A stretch of 51,456 nt of DNA from Bacteroidota bacterium (lineage in GTDB: Bacteria; Bacteroidota; Bacteroidia; B-17B0; Aurantibacillaceae). Every line of letters starts with the position of its first letter. Positions within the stretch are counted from its first letter, which is position 1. This document shows, piece after piece, positions 3,693 through 34,185 of the stretch. The notes under the pieces were generated by a model. It did not search any database. It saw only the letters and a list, made by a program, of their open reading frames with translations, and was not told the DNA's origin. The position numbers and the translations under genes were made by a program. The stretch is taken from positions 1-51,456 of the forward strand of contig JAUXZS010000060.1 in assembly GCA_030692515.1 (NCBI GenBank), written 5' to 3'.

Positions 3693-6143
3693 TTATTTTG
3701 TTTTAAAAATACCCATTGCTTCAAGATCCTCAAAAACAATGCGCTTTCCTTTATAAATAACGGTTACAAAAGCATCGTTTTGACCTGCTATAACTACCTT
3801 TTTATTATGCTCATAAGCTTTTCGTAAAGTGGTGAATTTTCCTCCAACTGTAACTCGGGTTATACCATCAATTAATAATAAATTATCAAATGGACCTAAT
3901 TTATTTAAATGTGGAAATTCATAATTTTTAGGGTTTTTAAACGCTGCAATTTGCACTCTAAACTCGAGACTATCTGCACTTATATCAGGGTATTTCTGGG
4001 CAAACAATCTAACTTTTTCTTGAGCAGGAGTTCTTGGAACAAAATTATCTATTGTTGCCACATTTGCATTGGAAGTATTTGAAGGCGATACCGCTGTTTT
4101 AACAGAAGCAACTGTTGGGCTAGTAATAGGGGCAACAGTATTTGTAGTATAATATGTTTCAGGATTAATTTTTGAACTAGTGCTAAGTGTTTTAGTAGCG
4201 GCAACTGATGGTGTAACAACCTTAGTTATTGTATTTGTTGAAGTTGGATTAACACTGGGAGTAACAACTTTAGCGATTGTATTTGTAGACGACGAAGTTA
4301 TTGTGGGAGTTACAGCTTTAGCTATTGTGTTTGTTGGAGATGAATTGAGAGTGGGAGTTACAACTTTAGTAATTGTATTTGTTGAAGTTGTTACAGAAGT
4401 TACAGTGGTTGTTACAACTTTTGTTTCGGTTACACTAGTAGATGTTACTGCAGCAATCGAAGTTGCAATTGTTGGCGATTTAGAAGAAACAGTATTTGTT
4501 AATGAATTAGTTTTAATCGCATTTAATGTTGAAGTTTTTGTTGCATTCACAACAGTTTGTATCTGGTCAAAATTAACATCAAAGTTTTTTTCTAAGTAAC
4601 CATTAAAACCATTAGTGGTTAAGGTTAAAGTTTGTGTTGGTGAATTTGCTTTGGTAAAAGTTACTTTATACTCGTTCCCCATTGGTAGCGTAACTATATA
4701 ATTTCCATTATTTGATTTAAAATTTTTGAACAGATAATTATTTTTAGATAAAATTTCAACTTTAATTTCTGCATCAACTACCTCAGCACTTTTTGCAATT
4801 GTTCCTTTTAACAACAACAATTTAAATTTATTAGGTTCAAAACCTGTATCTATTGTATAAATATCCTGCAATCCATAACCGTCTTTTTTTCCTTTAGCGT
4901 AATAAGCTTTTAAACCATTAGCCGCCAAAACAAAATTAATATCATCATCGGGTGTATTAATAGGATAAGCTAAATTTTCTACTTGTTTAAAGGTTGAATC
5001 TTTTATGTTCATGGAAGCAGCAAAAATATCATAACCCCCACTGCTTTTAATACCTTTAGAACTGTAAAATAAAGTTGTTCCGTCAGCATGCAAAAATGGA
5101 AAATCCTCGTCGTAAGGGGTATTTATTGAATCTCCGAGATTTGTAATTTTTCCCCAAACAGAATCTGCTAATAATTTAGCGCTATAAATATCTTTCCCTC
5201 CAAAACCTCCATTGCGCTCGCTACTAAAGTAAAGTGTTTTACCATCGGGAGATAAAGAACAATTTCCTTCCCAAGAATAAGAATTAATTTTACCCTTTAA
5301 TTTTGCAGGTTGAGAATACGTATTACCATTTAAATAACTTGCATAAATATCTCCGTGTCCATCCGATAAATCTTTGTAGCTATATAAAATTTGTCCGTCT
5401 TGACTCAAAGAAACAGCGGTTTCATTTCCAATGGTGTTAATGTTATCGAGAGGAATTGGACTTTGAAATTTATTATTAAGTTTCTTAGAAAGATAAATAT
5501 CTGATGTATAAATTCCGTTAATATCAGGTTTTAAAAAGCCATTTAATTTTCCGCCCTTACTTTTAGAGCCAGCATAATTAAAAACAATTACTGATTCATC
5601 CACCGAAATTAAAGGCATTGATTCATCATCTTTAGAATTTATTTCAACACCTAGATTGGTAACTTTAGCTTTAGTTTGATGGTAATGATAATATTTAGCA
5701 TTATTAATATAAGTTCTTAATAATTCTGTTTTTTCTCTATCCTCTTGCTTTATGCGTTTATATGAAAGATGTTTATTAAGTAATTCGGCTGTTTCATCAA
5801 ATTTATAATTATAGTGATATGCACGTGCTAAATCATATTCAATCTTATCAATTTTTTGATTGTTTGCATAAACTTCAGCTAAAGCTTTTAAGCTAGCCCC
5901 ATGTTTATCGCTTCTGTACAAACAACAAATACCATATAAATATTTTATAAAATCTTCGGTGGGATGAGACAGATGAACGTTTTCGAGAATAGGAAGTGCT
6001 AATTTATAATTTTGTTCTTCGTAAAAAACTAAAGCAAGGTCTAAAGAATCCCTTTCTGAATATCGCCATTTACGAGTATTTGTAATTTGGGCGGAAACGC
6101 TTGTGACAAAAAAACAAAGAAATACTATATGTTTAATATTCAT
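3693..6143 (-). CDS. Envelope protein with TPR, PD40 propeller, Thr-rich repeats and SPOR-like end
   Basis: This is a large exported protein of 816 residues. A signal peptide ends near SVSAQ (residue 19). TPR-like helices follow (about 30-130), then WD40-like PD40 blades (about 165-430, with repeated LSPDGKTLYFSS-type strands). Next is a carboxypeptidase-regulatory-like beta domain (about 445-530), a Thr/Ser/Val-rich linker (about 535-700), and a C-terminal domain starting FRVQIAAF that looks like a SPOR peptidoglycan-binding fold. Bacteroidota PD40 proteins of this layout, such as PorE of the T9SS, usually end in OmpA-like domains; here a SPOR-like end takes that place. I infer a periplasmic cell-wall anchoring role. 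The linker contains four exact 16-residue repeats. Confidence 0.75.
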   Translation of the reverse strand: MNIKHIVFLCFFVTSVSAQITNTRKWRYSERDSLDLALVFYEEQNYKLALPILENVHLSHPTEDFIKYLYGICCLYRSDKHGASLKALAEVYANNQKIDKIEYDLARAYHYNYKFDETAELLNKHLSYKRIKQEDREKTELLRTYINNAKYYHYHQTKAKVTNLGVEINSKDDESMPLISVDESVIVFNYAGSKSKGGKLNGFLKPDINGIYTSDIYLSKKLNNKFQSPIPLDNINTIGNETAVSLSQDGQILYSYKDLSDGHGDIYASYLNGNTYSQPAKLKGKINSYSWEGNCSLSPDGKTLYFSSERNGGFGGKDIYSAKLLADSVWGKITNLGDSINTPYDEDFPFLHADGTTLFYSSKGIKSSGGYDIFAASMNIKDSTFKQVENLAYPINTPDDDINFVLAANGLKAYYAKGKKDGYGLQDIYTIDTGFEPNKFKLLLLKGTIAKSAEVVDAEIKVEILSKNNYLFKNFKSNNGNYIVTLPMGNEYKVTFTKANSPTQTLTLTTNGFNGYLEKNFDVNFDQIQTVVNATKTSTLNAIKTNSLTNTVSSKSPTIATSIAAVTSTSVTETKVVTTTVTSVTTSTNTITKVVTPTLNSSPTNTIAKAVTPTITSSSTNTIAKVVTPSVNPTSTNTITKVVTPSVAATKTLSTSSKINPETYYTTNTVAPITSPTVASVKTAVSPSNTSNANVATIDNFVPRTPAQEKVRLFAQKYPDISADSLEFRVQIAAFKNPKNYEFPHLNKLGPFDNLLLIDGITRVTVGGKFTTLRKAYEHNKKVVIAGQNDAFVTVIYKGKRIVFEDLEAMGIFKTK
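4210..4401 (-). repeat. Four 48-bp tandem repeats inside the Thr-rich linker
   Basis: The units start at about 4210, 4258, 4306 and 4354, exactly 48 bp apart. They encode 16-residue repeats of the form TNTI(T/A)K(V/A)VTP plus six variable Ser/Thr/Pro/Asn residues. The period is a multiple of three, so copy-number change would keep the frame. Confidence 0.9.
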
Positions 6144-18727: not shown

Positions 18728-19111
18728 CAGGAAAAAGAAGATGCTCTTTTTAATGGGGCGATGAGTGCAGAATATTGGGAATACGATGCAAGAATAGGTC
18801 GTAGATGGAATACTGACCCAGTTAAATATCCTTTTGAATCACCTTACGCTACCTTTCATAATAATCCCATTTATTGGGCAGACCCTTCGGGAGCTGACGG
18901 AGAAGGACCAAATGGAGAATGTCCAGGGGATGGTAATATGTGTGAAAACGGTAACACGGAAATTTACGGTAGAAATGGTATTACAGGTAAAATGGAATGG
19001 ACAGAATATTCTAATGGTGGCGATGCCGAAGTTAACGGCGGTAGTCTCCATAGGTATAATCTCTACCAGGCATGCTCATGCCAAAGGCTTTGTATTCAAA
19101 ATAATAATTGA
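18728..19111 (+). pseudogene. RHS repeat-associated core fragment
   Basis: The frame reads QEKEDALFNGAMSAEYWEYD, then ARIGRRWNTDP, then SPYATFHNNPIYWADPSG, which is the conserved end of the RHS core. About 60 variable residues follow, ending CIQNNN. A complete RHS protein has many hundreds of residues of YD repeats upstream; here coding sequence starts immediately after a tRNA 3' end, so it is a truncated relic or a silent C-terminal cassette. An internal ATG at 18761 could start a 116-residue product, but I see no promoter. It converges on the gene at 19265-20215. Confidence 0.75.
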
Positions 19112-21490: not shown

Positions 21491-21599
21491 CCCGTTCGCG
21501 CGGATTTGCAATCCGTGCGTCTTATTTCAACGATGCTAAACAGCAACCCCGTTCGCGCGGATTTGCAATCCGTGCGCCTTATTTCAACGATGCTAAACA
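21491..21599 (+). repeat. Left REP pair, 57-bp tandem units
   Basis: Two REP hairpins lie at 21491-21519 and 21548-21576 with core CGCGCGGATT-TGC-AATCCGTGCG preceded by CCCGTT. The units repeat every 57 bp, and each ends in CTTATTTCAACGATGCTAAAC; the second includes the RAYT stop codon (21593-21595). The REPs are inverted relative to the array at 22218-22503. Confidence 0.9.
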
Positions 21600-22162
21600 A
21601 ATGTTTTAAGTTGATGAGGGATCAGATCTATTTCCAGCAACGAATCTAAACCTGCATAATTTCTTGCGCTACTAAATAAATAGTCTTCAGGTTTTTCAAC
21701 TATTCTATCTTTAACAGGATTATTATGTATATAATTTAGTTTTTGATATATAAACATATTGCTCGAAATTTCTTCTGCATGATAACCATCCTGCCATACC
21801 TTATACCCCTGCTCTCTTTTTAAATGCTCACAGGCTTTTGAAAAAAGATCTAAAAGCCATTCACGTCTGCTTTCATGCTCCTCTTTAATATTTTGAATTA
21901 TCTTTTTAGACGTGAATTTTTTAAAGTCCCTTATAATATTTGCCAACTCAAAACCTTCTTTTGCGCGACACATCATATGTAAATGACTTGGCATTAAAAC
22001 ATAAGCATAGATCTCTAAACCTTTTTGTTGTTGACAATACTTTAAAGAATCTATGATCGTATTTTTATGATTTGAACGCGTAAAAATATCTATCCACTCT
22101 ACTGTTGTAATTGTAACAAAGTACGCCTTATCATTATCTTTTGCTTTGTATTTAGTAGACAT
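21593..22162 (-). mobile_element. REP-associated tyrosine transposase (RAYT, IS200-like Y1 HUH)
   Basis: The 189-residue protein has the Y1_Tnp fold signature: YFVTITT start strand, the metal-binding HUH motif LMPSHLHMM (His60, His62), and the C-terminal helix KLNYIHNNPVK with the likely nucleophile Tyr144. RAYTs nick and join single-stranded REP hairpins and are thought to spread them; they are usually single-copy domesticated relatives of IS200/IS605. It is intact and bracketed by two REPs at its 3' side and four at its 5' side, which face inward. The ATG at 22162 lies inside a tandem unit that was later duplicated. Confidence 0.92.
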
Positions 22163-22503
22163 AAATCAAAGATAATATTTTCTATTTACTAGAAACCTTA
22201 TCAATGTTTATAAATCATGCACGGATTGCAGATCCGCGCGAGCGGGTTATCTTTTGCTTTGTATTTAGTAGACATATATCAAAGATAATATTTTCTATTT
22301 ACTAGAAACCTTATCAATGTTTATAAATTATGCACGGATTCCAAATCCGCGCGAGCGGGATAATATTTTCTATTTACTAGAACCTTATCAATATTTATAA
22401 ATTATGCACGGATTGCAAATCCGCGCGAGCGGGTATTTTCTATTTACTAGAACCTTATCAATATTTATAAATTATGCACGGATTGCAAATCCGCGCGAAC
22501 GGG
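22136..22503 (-). repeat. Right REP array of four tandem units
   Basis: REP hairpins at 22218-22246, 22331-22359, 22405-22433 and 22475-22503 carry CCCGCTCGCGCGGATTT-type sequence read on the minus strand. Steps are 113, 74 and 70 bp. The 113-bp step exists because 22249-22275 repeats the first nine RAYT codons exactly (22136-22162). Spacers are homologous (CTATTTACTAGAA, CCTTATCAAT, TTATAAAT), so this is head-to-tail duplication rather than CRISPR-like spacing. Confidence 0.9.
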
Positions 22504-22675: not shown

Positions 22676-25255
22676 TTGAAAAAAAATCTCTTTGTACTGC
22701 TTCTTTTTCCTTGTTTGCTTTTTGGGCAAGATAAAACAATGGATTCTTTAAAGTTGGCTCTTAAAAATGCTAGTCACGACACCATACGTTGTAATATTTT
22801 AAATCAAATGGTTGAGGCTGAACCTAACAGTAATATTTGGCCAAAATATAATGAGGAATTAAAAATATTAGCTGAAAAAAATATTGCAAAAACTAGCAAG
22901 CCTTTAAAAATATATTTTAAACACCTTGCCTCAGCCATAGGCAACATGGGCTATATTTATAGTGAACAAGGTAATAGCCAAAAGGCATTAGAGTGTTATC
23001 AAAAAGGTTTAAAAATATCGGAAGATATTGATGATAAAGAAAGTGTAGCGGGTATATTAAATAATATAGGTTATGTTTATCAGAGCCAAGGAGATATTTC
23101 AAAGGCATTAGATTATTTTCAAAAAAGTGTAAAAATACAAGAGGTTATTGGGAATAAAGAAGGAACTGCAAATTCTTTAACTAACATTGGTATGATTTAT
23201 CAGAACCAAGGTGATATTCCAATGGCGTTGGAATATTATCATAAGAGTTTAAAAACTTTTGAGGAGGGTGGAAAAAAAGAGGGGATAGCAATTTCATTAA
23301 ATAACATTGGCGTTATTTACCAAAACCTAGGAGATTATTTAAAAGCTTTAGAATATTTTAAAAATAGTTTGCAAATCAGAAAAGAGATTGGAGATAAAAA
23401 AGGAATGGCTCAATCTTTATTAAACCTAGCTTATATTTATGATATACAAGGCAATATTCCATCTGCATTAGATTTTAATTACAAAAGTTTAAAATTATGT
23501 GAAGAATTAGGAAACAAAGAAGGGATAGCAAATGCACTAGACCAAATTGGGACGATGTATAAGAACCAGGGTGATTTACATAAGTCATTAGATTTTTATC
23601 TTAAGAGTTTAAAAATTAATGAGGAGATTGGAAATAAAAGTGGAATAGCAGAAGCTTTAACTAATGTTGGAATTATTTATAGAAGAATTGGCGATCCATC
23701 AATTACTTCCTCAAAAGAAGAATCGAGCAGAATAGGAAACACAAAAGCATTAGAGTATTTTAAAAAGAGTTTAAAAATATCTGAGGAATTAGACAGAAAA
23801 GCTGGTGTAGCTGCTTCATTAAACAACATTGCTCGTATTTATATGACCGAAGGAGACCCTTCAATTACATCCTCAAAAGAAGAAGCAATTAAGGCCGGAA
23901 TTCCTATAGCGTTAAATTATCTTATAAAGAGTTTAAAAATTCTGGAAGAAATTGGTTATAAAGAAGGAATAGCAACTACCCAAAACAATGTGGCTATTTT
24001 ACTTATAAGGAAAGGACAATTTAAAGAGGCTTTTTTATATGCAACTAAAGGAATGCTAATTGCAAAGGAAATAGGTGCCCCAGATAATATTATGAAATCT
24101 GCGCAAACGCTCAAAACACTTTTTCAAAAACAAAATAATTATCAAAAAGCATTTGAAAATTATGAACTAGAAATTAAAATGAGAGATAGTGTTAATAATC
24201 TGGCCACTCAAAAAGCAACTATTAAAAAACAAATGCAATATGCTTTTGAGAAAAAAGCCGCATTAGATAGTACTGCACATGCTAAAGAAACTGAAATTAA
24301 AAACGCAGAAATTACTGCGCGTAAGGCAGAGTTAAAAGTAAAGCAAAATACACAATATGCACTTTATGGAGGCCTTGCCTTAGTAATGATTTTTGGAGGA
24401 TTTATGTATAATCGTTTTAAGGTAACACAAAAACAAAAACAGGTTATTGAAATAAAAGAAAAAGAAACTCAATTTCAAAAACATATTATTGAAGAAAAAC
24501 ATAAAGAAATTACTGACAGTATAAACTATGCAGAAAGAATACAACGAAGTTTTATAGCAACAAAAGAAATTTTGGACGAAAACCTAAATGATTATTTTGT
24601 TTTGTTTAAACCAAAAGATATTGTAAGTGGCGATTTTTACTGGGCAAGTAAACTCAATAACGGCAACTTTGCTTTAGTTACCGCTGATAGTACTGGCCAT
24701 GGCGTGCCAGGAGCCATTATGAGTTTATTAAACATTACAAGTTTAGAAAAAGCAATTGAAACTTTAAGCGAACCATCTGAAATATTAAACTCAACTCGTA
24801 AAACCATTATTGAAAGATTAAAAAAAGATGGAAGCGAGCATGGTGGTAAAGACGGAATGGATGCAAGTTTAACCGTGTATGATTTTAAAAATAAAAAAAT
24901 AATTATTGCCTCGGCCAATAACCCTGTTTGGATAATGAGAGGCGCTGAACTAATAGATGTTAAAGCCGATAAAATGCCAATAGGCAAAGGCGAAAGAGAT
25001 TCGGTATTATTTACGCAACAAGAAATTGATTTGCAACAAGGCGATGTAATTTACACTTTAACCGATGGTTTCCCCGATCAGTTTGGTGGCGATAAAGGCA
25101 AAAAATTTATGAGTAAAAAATTAAAAGAATTACTTGCTGCTAATTCCCAGCTACCAATGCAAGACCAAAAACAATTACTCGAAAAAACCTTTGCAGATTG
25201 GGTAGGAAATTTAGAACAAGTAGATGATGTTACTTTAATTGGCGTAAGAGTTTAA
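22676..25255 (+). CDS. TPR sensor protein with SpoIIE-type PP2C phosphatase domain
   Basis: The 859 residues comprise a signal peptide (LLFPCLLFGQ), about ten TPR units (roughly 75-470), a coiled coil (about 500-550), one membrane helix (YGGLALVMIFGGFMY), a second short coiled coil, and a SpoIIE/PP2C serine phosphatase domain (about 640-859; motifs SGDFYW, ADSTGHGVPGA, GKDGMDASL, LTDGFPDQFGG, DDVTLI). Such proteins probably sense through periplasmic TPRs and dephosphorylate a cytoplasmic partner, often an anti-sigma antagonist. The start appears to be TTG at 22676, because no ATG precedes the signal peptide. Two adjacent TPRs carry a near-identical DPSITSSKEE insertion. Confidence 0.85.
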   Translation: MKKNLFVLLLFPCLLFGQDKTMDSLKLALKNASHDTIRCNILNQMVEAEPNSNIWPKYNEELKILAEKNIAKTSKPLKIYFKHLASAIGNMGYIYSEQGNSQKALECYQKGLKISEDIDDKESVAGILNNIGYVYQSQGDISKALDYFQKSVKIQEVIGNKEGTANSLTNIGMIYQNQGDIPMALEYYHKSLKTFEEGGKKEGIAISLNNIGVIYQNLGDYLKALEYFKNSLQIRKEIGDKKGMAQSLLNLAYIYDIQGNIPSALDFNYKSLKLCEELGNKEGIANALDQIGTMYKNQGDLHKSLDFYLKSLKINEEIGNKSGIAEALTNVGIIYRRIGDPSITSSKEESSRIGNTKALEYFKKSLKISEELDRKAGVAASLNNIARIYMTEGDPSITSSKEEAIKAGIPIALNYLIKSLKILEEIGYKEGIATTQNNVAILLIRKGQFKEAFLYATKGMLIAKEIGAPDNIMKSAQTLKTLFQKQNNYQKAFENYELEIKMRDSVNNLATQKATIKKQMQYAFEKKAALDSTAHAKETEIKNAEITARKAELKVKQNTQYALYGGLALVMIFGGFMYNRFKVTQKQKQVIEIKEKETQFQKHIIEEKHKEITDSINYAERIQRSFIATKEILDENLNDYFVLFKPKDIVSGDFYWASKLNNGNFALVTADSTGHGVPGAIMSLLNITSLEKAIETLSEPSEILNSTRKTIIERLKKDGSEHGGKDGMDASLTVYDFKNKKIIIASANNPVWIMRGAELIDVKADKMPIGKGERDSVLFTQQEIDLQQGDVIYTLTDGFPDQFGGDKGKKFMSKKLKELLAANSQLPMQDQKQLLEKTFADWVGNLEQVDDVTLIGVRV

Positions 25256-32230: not shown

Positions 32231-33538
32231 TTAAAGCTTATCAATTAATTCACAGAGTTTTTTTGTTAATTCTTTTCGGCTATATTTTTTTACCTCAGCT
32301 TCATTTCTTTCAATAACCTTACCATTAAAATAGTCTAAAATATTTTTTTCTAGAGTTTGTTCATCATTAAAATCGCTAATTAAACCTGTTTTGGTTTTAG
32401 TAATTATTTCTGCGAGATCGCCATCACAAGGACCAATAGCTAACACGGGCACATTGGCCGACATGTATTCAAAAAATTTCCCTGTTAAAATACCTTTTGC
32501 ATTTTTTGTATTGTTTACCAACAACAATAATAATTTTGATTTTTGTTGCTCTTCAATTACTTTATCGTGAGGTAAATAGTCTATTTTATTTACAAATTGT
32601 GTCAACCCAAATTCGTCAATTTGCTCCTTCACATAAATATCAATTTTCCCAACCAATTTAATTTCTAATTGATTTTTAAATTTCTCATTCTCGCTTACAA
32701 TCTTTCTTAACGCCTTCCATAATATTTGTGGATTACGGTCTTTAACCAAAGTTCCAATATGCGCAATGCTAAATTTAGCATCTTTAGTAATTGTTCCTGT
32801 TTTTACATCTTCATCGTCGTACCCATTTGTAATCACTTCAAATTTATTTAAATCCACTCCTCCTGAGTTTTTATACATTTCTAAAAACTCATTGCTCATA
32901 GTTTGTCCAACACTTAATACAATATCTGCATTTTGTAAAACACTTAATTCTTGTTTATGATGTTTATTATCTGCCCATTTTGTAAGCATTAATTTTTCAT
33001 AAAAATCAATGTTCGTCCAAGGGTCTCTAAAATCGGCAATCCATTTTAAATTTTTATTTGTTTTTTTTAAACCTAAAGCAATTAAGTGCATAGAATGTGG
33101 GGGACCGCTGCTAATTACAATATCTATTTTATTTTTTTGGATATAGTCATTTAAATAATTTATGCTAGGTTTAATCCAAAATTTTCTTGCATCGGGAATA
33201 AAAAAATTTCCGCGAATCCAAACACTTATTTTCTCGGTTAATCCCGCTTTTTTATTTTCACTTAAAAACGAAGCATTAATTTTATCTTCTTTTTTTCTGC
33301 CAATAAATTTTTTGTAAAAATTATAGGGTTCCCAAATAGGCGTTTTTAAAACAATGGTTCCTTTAGGAATATCTTTTTGCAAGCTTTCATCAATAACCGG
33401 CATCTCCCCGTTTTCGGCAGTATACACTATTGGCTCATAGCCAAACGCATGCATATACTTAACAAACTTAAGCCAACGTTGCACACCGGCGCCACCGCTT
33501 GGCGGCCAATAATAAGTAAGTATTAATACCTTTTTCAT
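32231..33538 (-). CDS. Glycosyltransferase family 4-like protein
   Basis: The 435 residues form two Rossmann-like domains typical of GT-B enzymes: the N-terminal YYWPPSGGAGVQRWLKFVKYM with the acceptor-side GGAGVQR loop, and the C-terminal IAHIGTLVKDRNPQILWKAL, GKFFEYMSANVPVLAIG and the E-x7-E-type region of family 4. It transfers a sugar from a nucleotide donor, most likely in exopolysaccharide or LPS building. No cluster of similar genes is nearby. It converges with the preceding gene with a 5-base gap. Confidence 0.82.
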   Translation of the reverse strand: MKKVLILTYYWPPSGGAGVQRWLKFVKYMHAFGYEPIVYTAENGEMPVIDESLQKDIPKGTIVLKTPIWEPYNFYKKFIGRKKEDKINASFLSENKKAGLTEKISVWIRGNFFIPDARKFWIKPSINYLNDYIQKNKIDIVISSGPPHSMHLIALGLKKTNKNLKWIADFRDPWTNIDFYEKLMLTKWADNKHHKQELSVLQNADIVLSVGQTMSNEFLEMYKNSGGVDLNKFEVITNGYDDEDVKTGTITKDAKFSIAHIGTLVKDRNPQILWKALRKIVSENEKFKNQLEIKLVGKIDIYVKEQIDEFGLTQFVNKIDYLPHDKVIEEQQKSKLLLLLVNNTKNAKGILTGKFFEYMSANVPVLAIGPCDGDLAEIITKTKTGLISDFNDEQTLEKNILDYFNGKVIERNEAEVKKYSRKELTKKLCELIDKL

Positions 33539-33649: not shown

Positions 33650-33781
33650 TCGTCCCTACGGGACTTACATCTCTTATGATAATTTTCTCTACAATATTAA
33701 GTCCCTAAAGGGACTCCGTAGGAGTCAAATATTATAGAAAAATTAGCGAGAAAATGTTTAAGTCCCGTAGGGACGAAATAA
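33650..33781. repeat. Palindromic block with GTCCC(GTA)GGGAC hairpins
   Basis: ATTTCGTCCCTACGGGACTTA at the left is mirrored by AAGTCCCGTAGGGACGAAAT at the right, and the arms continue imperfectly inward for about 50 bases. Between them sit GTCCCTAAAGGGAC and GACTCCGTAGGAGTC, two further perfect short hairpins. Confidence 0.75.
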
Positions 33782-34040
33782 TTAACCATAAAAAACCGTC
33801 AATACATTTTGATAGTAATGACGGTAAATTACATTTTGATAAATTATTTTACAACTACAATTTTTCTTGTAGAAACAGGGACTCCGTAGGAGTCAAATAT
33901 TATAGAAAAATTAGTGAGAAAATGTTTAAGTCCCGTAGGGACGAAATAATTAACCATAAAAAACCGTCAATACCTTTTATTAGTAGTGACAGTCAATTAG
34001 ATTTTGATAAATTATTTTACAACTACAAATTTTTTGTATA
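33710..34040 (+). repeat. Two 168-bp tandem repeats
   Basis: GGGACTCCGTAGGAGTC begins at 33710 and again at 33878, and the following about 160 bases are repeated with few changes (CGTCAATACATTTTGAT against CGTCAATACCTTTTATT). Each copy carries the GACTCC/GGAGTC and GTCCC/GGGAC hairpins. The period is a multiple of three, so an ORF (33754-34041) runs through; I regard it as a by-product of the repeat. Confidence 0.85.
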
Positions 34041-34185
34041 AACAACCCTTCCAGTCATTACAATAAACAAATGATAAATAGTTTTTTCATGTGTAGTTGT
34101 ATTACTTACAATGAAATTATTAAATTAAATTTAGATTTAAAACTAAAAAAAGGTTTGAAAATAATTACTAATAAATGCTACTAGT

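Follow-up and report, generated by a model that had tools for sequence, protein, structure and literature searches.

How REPs are disseminated is poorly understood, as stated in the portion of a study on TnpA_REP that was available to us (PMC8266576). According to the same portion, other TnpA_REP proteins cleave single-stranded REPs in vitro, form a 5'-phosphotyrosine link and transfer strands, and the known cut is C/T (a slash marks cuts and junctions throughout). Nunvar et al. 2010 (PMC2817692, available in part) proposed that the REPs on either side of the gene for a REP-associated tyrosine transposase (RAYT) are multiplied by the RAYT itself, and that a cut next to a REP may serve to prime DNA synthesis that runs into the gene. 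Tandem REPIN clusters beside RAYT genes were reported by Bertels and Rainey 2011 in the accessible part of their paper (PMC3116915). The REPs of the TnpA_REP subclass 2.6 enzyme group are termed atypical in the extract at hand of Quentin et al. 2018 (PMC6006769).

Here, we analyzed a RAYT locus in the draft assembly (68 contigs) of a Bacteroidota bacterium. The window, that is, the whole stretch of DNA analyzed, comprises 51,456 nt. A sequence-only reading had described an intact Y1 transposase gene with two REPs on one side and four on the other, all hairpins facing inward, and the open reading frame (ORF), the profile matches and the REP positions agree with this description.

The RAYT gene and its REPs

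The features of the locus are as follows (window positions).

21491 to 21518 and 21548 to 21575, plus strand: the two left REPs
21491 to 21547, plus strand: outer downstream unit, with its CCCG edge at 21491, spacer, a copy of the gene's final 7 nt and 5 filler bases
21548 to 21604, plus strand: gene-proximal downstream unit, with its CCCG edge at 21548, spacer and the final gene bases
21593 to 22162, minus strand: RAYT gene, intact ORF of 189 aa
22134 to 22246, minus strand: upstream unit U1 (gene-proximal), with its CCCG edge at 22246, leader and gene nt 1-29
22247 to 22359, minus strand: upstream unit U2, a copy of U1 (96%) whose gene portion is 29 nt long (nine codons and 2 nt)
22249 to 22275, minus strand: RAYT codons 1-9 repeated exactly, within U2
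22360 to 22433, minus strand: upstream unit U3, outer end as in the others, truncated ahead of the start codon and ending AAAATATTAT
22434 to 22503, minus strand: upstream unit U4 (outermost), outer end as in the others, stopping 4 nt short of U3 and ending AAAATA
outer ends at 22246, 22359, 22433 and 22503, minus strand: the four right REPs

The RAYT ORF (22162 to 21593, minus strand) contains no internal stop. Its product scored 117.6 bits with NCBIfam NF047646 REP_Tyr_transpos (cut-off 80) and 40.7 bits with Pfam Y1_Tnp (cut-off 23), and matched the profile of TnpArep 4er8 (E=1e-4); its score with the IS200 model (30.9) lies below the cut-off of 55. Residues H60, H62 and Y144, which we take to be catalytic, do not vary across 11 aligned relatives. 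The closest relative found (L014) is 85% identical, and the dN of 0.089 and dS of 1.68 between the two indicate that the protein is maintained by selection. The subclass 2.6 motifs WQ, YIH[QN]NP and SS are present as VWQDG, YIHNNP and FSSARNY. In place of the subclass motif NH[LIV]H the protein has SHLH, with both histidines retained and N changed to S; we take this as variation, since other relatives have NH. A relative was found in 6 of 72,556 plasmid records, each below 60% identity. One RAYT, on a Bernardetia plasmid (L293), lies between annotated RHS genes, and a reading frame near the window RAYT (18761-19111) is, judging from its motif, presumably an RHS-like C-terminal one.

Read from the outside towards the gene, the REP is CCCGYT-CGCGCGGATY-TGC-AATCCGTGC, the same element on both sides of the gene. 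Its hairpin comprises 10 stem base pairs and the loop TGC (TGG in U2, 22359-22247), lacks a GTAG tag and is preceded at the stem by CCCGYT. The window contains five copies of the REP core CGGATTNNNAATCCG, and 100 shuffles yielded 0. These five do not include the gene-proximal right REP, which carries a C.A mismatch. The flanking REPs are inverted, with a perfect 28-nt inverted match between 21548-21575 and 22476-22503. On either side of the gene, and in a further array on contig C19, the REPs stand head to tail, and BIME-type alternation was seen in none of these places.

Array units with a constant outer edge

From the outside towards the gene, each window unit is composed of CCCGYT, hairpin, spacer and gene end. 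That a 113-bp unit exists twice on the right, the second copy repeating the first nine codons, was correctly seen in the sequence-only reading: the copies (22134-22246 and 22247-22359, head to tail) are 96% identical, and the copied gene start is exact over nine codons (22249-22275) and 2 nt longer than these. The last gene bases that it placed in the left 57-bp units are the final 7 nt, stop codon included; the units are spaced 57 bp apart, have 52 nt in common (98%) and are separated by 5 filler bases at their junction. The copied gene start also opens a 24-codon frame ahead of the RAYT (22275-22201, minus strand), which reads MSTKYKAKDNPLARICNPCMIYKH and then a stop.

All window units are constant at one end, the outer REP edge; their inner ends are all different. 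In gene orientation, the upstream units have a common start (CCCGYTCGCGCGGATY), with CCCGYT always 16 nt before the hairpin loop, and differing stops: one lies at gene nt 29, and the other two fall short of the start codon and differ from each other by 4 nt. U1 continues into the full gene. The U2/U1 junction reads GATAA/CCCG. Past this point the gene continues TGATAAGG and the copy continues CCCGCTCG, with 0 shared bases.

Arrays of this kind might have been built by unequal recombination between direct REPs. U3 and U4 have differences from U1 and U2 in common, so that one of them may descend from the other, and the long regular arrays at L024, L027 and L035 in the survey below would suit such a process. 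Recombination requires an initial duplicate, though, and would leave the inner ends of units unchanged, whereas those of U3 and U4 are 4 nt apart and that of U2 lies further away. We consider this origin very improbable.

Further tandem direct repeats are present in the window at 33709-34044, 4213-4384 and 22981-23335, the last within a TPR-like gene adjoining the arrays; tandem repeats per se are thus not unique to the RAYT.

REPs elsewhere in the genome and in relatives

The sequence-only reading had proposed a search for further REPs, lying singly or as inverted pairs, and held that their absence, or the same array in a relative lacking the RAYT, would argue for simple local slippage. The pattern CGCGGATTNNNAATCCG matched nine times in the 4.33 Mb genome, five times in the window and four times outside; these four exact matches include a member of a three-unit array and copies that bear RAYT gene ends. 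An inverted pair was indeed found (C34:26980/27043), along with one direct array and one internally deleted element. The inverted pair belongs to a stretch of about 26920-27190 on C34 (L012) in which a RAYT 3' end with its REP stands beside a REP with a RAYT 5' start. The internally deleted RAYT copy, 5.8 kb away at 32866-33243, has REPs at both ends.

The direct array, near 54.4 kb on C19, consists of three head-to-tail units in the style of the window, away from the gene. Its junctions, TTTTGCTT/CCCGTT and CAACAATA/CCCGTT, again have one end fixed and different tails. Among 40 genomes of the genus, a C19-type unit is present in only two, the window genome and G012. The single unit of G012 has the longer of the tails and the edge GAT/CCGTT, with one C fewer. 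Both lie in the same neighbourhood, downstream of a matching 805-aa ORF (presumably the ribonucleotide reductase large chain) and next to a shared CCTCCTCC repeat, and the intervening genes differ. A search of G012 at E<=0.001 found no RAYT. REPs of the window type also occur in three relatives without a detected RAYT, among 60 relatives, so REP presence alone is no proof of current activity. The proposed test does not overturn the reading.

A palindromic repeat (CCTCCTCC...GAGGAGG) adjoins REP units in two genomes (L300 9216-9332, L301 9366-9588), within one neighbourhood whose intervening genes differ. A comparison of the whole element with an empty site was dropped: elsewhere in the genus, the best matches to the gene adjoining on the left are 58-63% identical, too distant at the base level.

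Gene-reaching repeats at other RAYT loci

We surveyed RAYT loci of Bacteroidota from three sources. The first was a set of 60 relatives, 33 of them with a match; the second, the best 80 among the 506 places confirmed in named genomes; the third, 395 genomes of the class, of which 155 gave a match and from which 24 returned loci and 80 more of the listed matches were used. We excluded loci that had only weak or partial matches (L039-L042, L049-L052), duplicates and the remaining class matches, which gave 207 distinct loci (32, 74 and 101 by source). Array presence played no part in choosing them. Base frequencies, junction tests and the figures for inner ends and overlaps were computed before two doubled loci were removed (209 to 207 loci); the counts of 33 loci, 21 loci and 24 event junctions are identical for both sets.

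A direct repeat reaching into the RAYT coding sequence is present at 33 of the 207 loci. The idea of array growth through the copying of gene-reaching segments is borne out, and the pattern recurs: at 21 of the 207 loci, with 24 junctions, the gene-reaching copies are same-side tandems (the remaining 12 of the 33 are not). L063 and L077, with 96% identical proteins, probably represent one inherited event; identity among the other event loci is at most 87.5%. Tandem junctions also concentrate near the gene, with 43 of 391 gene-adjacent 400-nt windows having one versus 4 of 378 at a distance of 800-1200 nt (odds ratio 11.6, p=1e-9). At E. coli K-12 rayT, a single locus and not a distribution, repeats begin 4 nt past the gene and none lies inside.

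Gene-reaching repeats extend into the gene by 7 to 399 nt at their inner ends, with a median of 39.5. No inner-end consensus was apparent by eye across the survey junctions, and some inner ends show C/T (by eye). The 5' copies of L063, L064 and L084 end at gene nt 17-18, after AAATAYAA(A), which could be a hot spot instead of a random stop. Gaps at the junctions range from -4 to +44, besides two multi-copy alignments at -53 and -87. Filler of 1-44 nt is present at 14 of the 24 junctions and an overlap of 1-4 nt at five, with no overlap above 4 nt, the two multi-copy alignments aside. Copies of the 5' gene end also occur downstream of the gene in direct orientation (L158, L160, L247), and L236 (G072:C163) has two successive RAYT matches, 659-1201 (with one TAG) and 1319-1831.

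Gene-reaching copies could also arise if whole elements were inserted in tandem at a REP edge and one copy was then part-deleted up to the next REP edge, possibly via abortive cleavage by the enzyme. Internally deleted copies are known from the window genome (C34:32866) and from L092, where one lies behind a full RAYT (about 639-1071 relative to the gene start) and fuses position 68 of the gene to position 466. In L019, L091, L116, L124 and L125, full genes have 3'-end copies on their upstream side. The existence of internally deleted copies leaves this course of events some probability. No direct repeat spans at least 430 nt of the RAYT gene at any survey locus, so intact tandem dimers were not seen, and the mostly short inner ends argue against a deletion origin. 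Overall, we judge insertion followed by deletion to be distinctly unlikely. L092 also has a 27-nt gene-internal piece (150-176) at the border of the full and deleted elements.

Junction position and hairpin polarity

That junctions lie at the outer REP end was first noted from the window alone, ahead of the survey; both cut-offs used here (CC within 4 nt; 15-18 nt) were picked after the junction list was known. As the null, we slid each junction along the same unit. CC was found at most 4 nt from the junction in 14 of 23 events versus 3.62 expected (P=6e-7; L102, whose match spans several copies, was excluded). The junction lay 15-18 nt before the REP loop in 9 of 21 scorable events versus 1.16 expected (P=5e-7; three events had no scorable hairpin), and in 8 of 19 versus 1.07 expected with the window locus excluded (P=3e-6). 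CC is missing at the junction in 9 of the 23 events, among them L257, and 12 of the 21 fall outside 15-18 nt. Five of these lie at 31-42 nt (two in L063 and one each in L064, L066 and L077), with CCC still at the junction on the 5' side of L063 and in L064; other misfits lie at 13-14 or 19-22 nt. In L097, an extra REP-like stretch separates the copies. In L063, L064, L084 and L092, the REP edge bears an extra CCCGAYCGCTCGG-like stretch, which may form another small hairpin, about 15-30 nt beyond the usual one. Among 12 tandem arrays that stop short of the gene, 2 of 9 junctions lie at 15-18 nt (P=0.085), so the edge rule is shown for gene-reaching arrays only.

At 112 loci, we scored 156 adjacent hairpins on the strand that runs from the outside towards the gene. 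Their pairs were G.T in 70, A.C in 10, T.G in 4 and C.A in 4, and 62 hairpins were perfect; the excess of G.T over A.C has a binomial P of 3e-12, with kinship ignored. In 54 hairpins the G.T occupies position seven counted from the loop, and the bases before the stem of these are G (80%), Y (89%) and T (78%), with C-rich positions further out, perhaps the counterpart of the GTAG tag. As single-stranded DNA, the CCC strand of a left window REP folds with -10 kcal/mol and a shorter complementary piece with -5.9, a hint that the CCC strand is the one read by the enzyme. The gene-proximal right REP, with its mismatch, folds differently (-7.5 kcal/mol) and not into the REP hairpin.

Slippage or template switching during replication could place repeats at hairpins that just stall the polymerase, the enzyme being uninvolved. 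The repeats are indeed located at hairpins, five junctions have overlaps of 1-4 nt, and filler is known to occur at repair junctions, as it does here. Slippage would not account for junctions that cluster about 6 nt outside the stem, neither at the stem foot nor at random, nor for a fixed end that is the same strand end on both sides of the gene. The junction overlaps are short or absent, and slippage between REPs leaves the differing inner ends unexplained. We hold slippage to be unlikely and favour an enzyme-linked origin. The sequence-only reading had offered processing or re-insertion at the REP next to the gene and slippage between REPs as the mechanism; the first is favoured by outer ends that tend to lie at the REP edge, the varying inner ends, the short overlaps and the C19 array.

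A model for array growth

We lean slightly towards the reading that the window arrays grew by RAYT-directed one-ended insertion, and we infer from the sequences that the RAYT both cleaves and joins at the outer REP edge. On the unit strand that reads CCCGYT-hairpin towards the gene, the 5' outer end is constant and the 3' inner end variable, and a fixed 5' end with an open 3' end is the expected product of a Y1 HUH enzyme that holds the REP-tipped 5' end. The RAYT would recognise the REP hairpin as single-stranded DNA, cleave at the outer REP edge and remain linked to the 5' CCC end. It would then carry a REP-tipped strand whose 3' end lies anywhere the strand stops, be it in the leader, the gene interior or the flank. 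This strand would be swapped into a resident REP edge, the flank contributing a 3'-OH that is joined to the 5' CCC of the incoming strand, whose own 3'-OH is joined to the resident CCC. The reaction is possible on either side of the gene, since the flanking REPs share the outside-to-gene polarity on opposite strands; upstream-derived copies would bring the gene start and downstream-derived copies the gene end. Units might later be multiplied further by recombination.

More tentatively, and with somewhat less confidence than for the window itself, we suggest that the Bacteroidota REP is a one-ended mobile unit, for which a Y1 enzyme requires no more than the 5' CCC-hairpin end and re-inserts the strand that follows, whatever it is, at REP edges. 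If so, REPs near the gene and away from it would be 3'-truncated copies of transposase gene ends, which would explain the origin of REPs from the transposase. Fragments of the transposase gene at natural junctions serve as tags that tell the fixed end from the open one. For this enzyme group, the predicted cut lies before CCC, 16 nt ahead of the loop. The REP edge here does not match the C/T cut known from other TnpA_REP. A guide-pairing rule modelled on the portion of PMC8266576 at hand and extended to a YT guide gave no fit to the REP edge and was rejected.

Comparison with known systems

The window RAYT resembles the TnpA_REP of subclass 2.6 of Bacteroidetes (group 5 in the table of Quentin et al. 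2018, PMC6006769), with which it has the Y1/HUH protein type and the motifs WQ, YIH[QN]NP and SS in common. As here, that subclass belongs to Bacteroidota and has atypical flanking hairpins with copies elsewhere in the genome. Arrays with gene ends, the fixed outer edge, the CGYT-like tag and the conserved G.T pair are seen here and are not reported for subclass 2.6 in the part of that paper available to us. Inverted REPs likewise flank the gene in gammaproteobacterial REPtrons (Nunvar et al. 2010, PMC2817692), the tag there being GT(A/G)G in contrast to CCCGYT here, and units with gene ends are not mentioned in the accessible text of that study. REPINs, too, consist of short hairpin repeats associated with a RAYT (Bertels and Rainey 2011, PMC3116915); their unit, as given in the part of the paper at hand, is an inverted REP pair present in hundreds of copies, whereas the units here are few, stand head to tail and contain gene ends. 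In a mostly open-access literature, we found no report of gene-end copies in REP arrays among the titles listed.

With IS200/IS605, the window element shares the Y1 transposase, hairpin ends and single-strand logic, but its hairpins are inverted at the two ends, unlike those of IS200/IS605. One-ended transposition of IS91 and Helitrons produces one precise and one open end via HUH chemistry. These elements use different enzymes and scattered targets, whereas re-insertion here would occur at the element's own ends. What this locus and its relatives add to the earlier proposals is evidence from the junctions, namely that gene ends are copied, that an outer edge is preferred and that inner ends are open.
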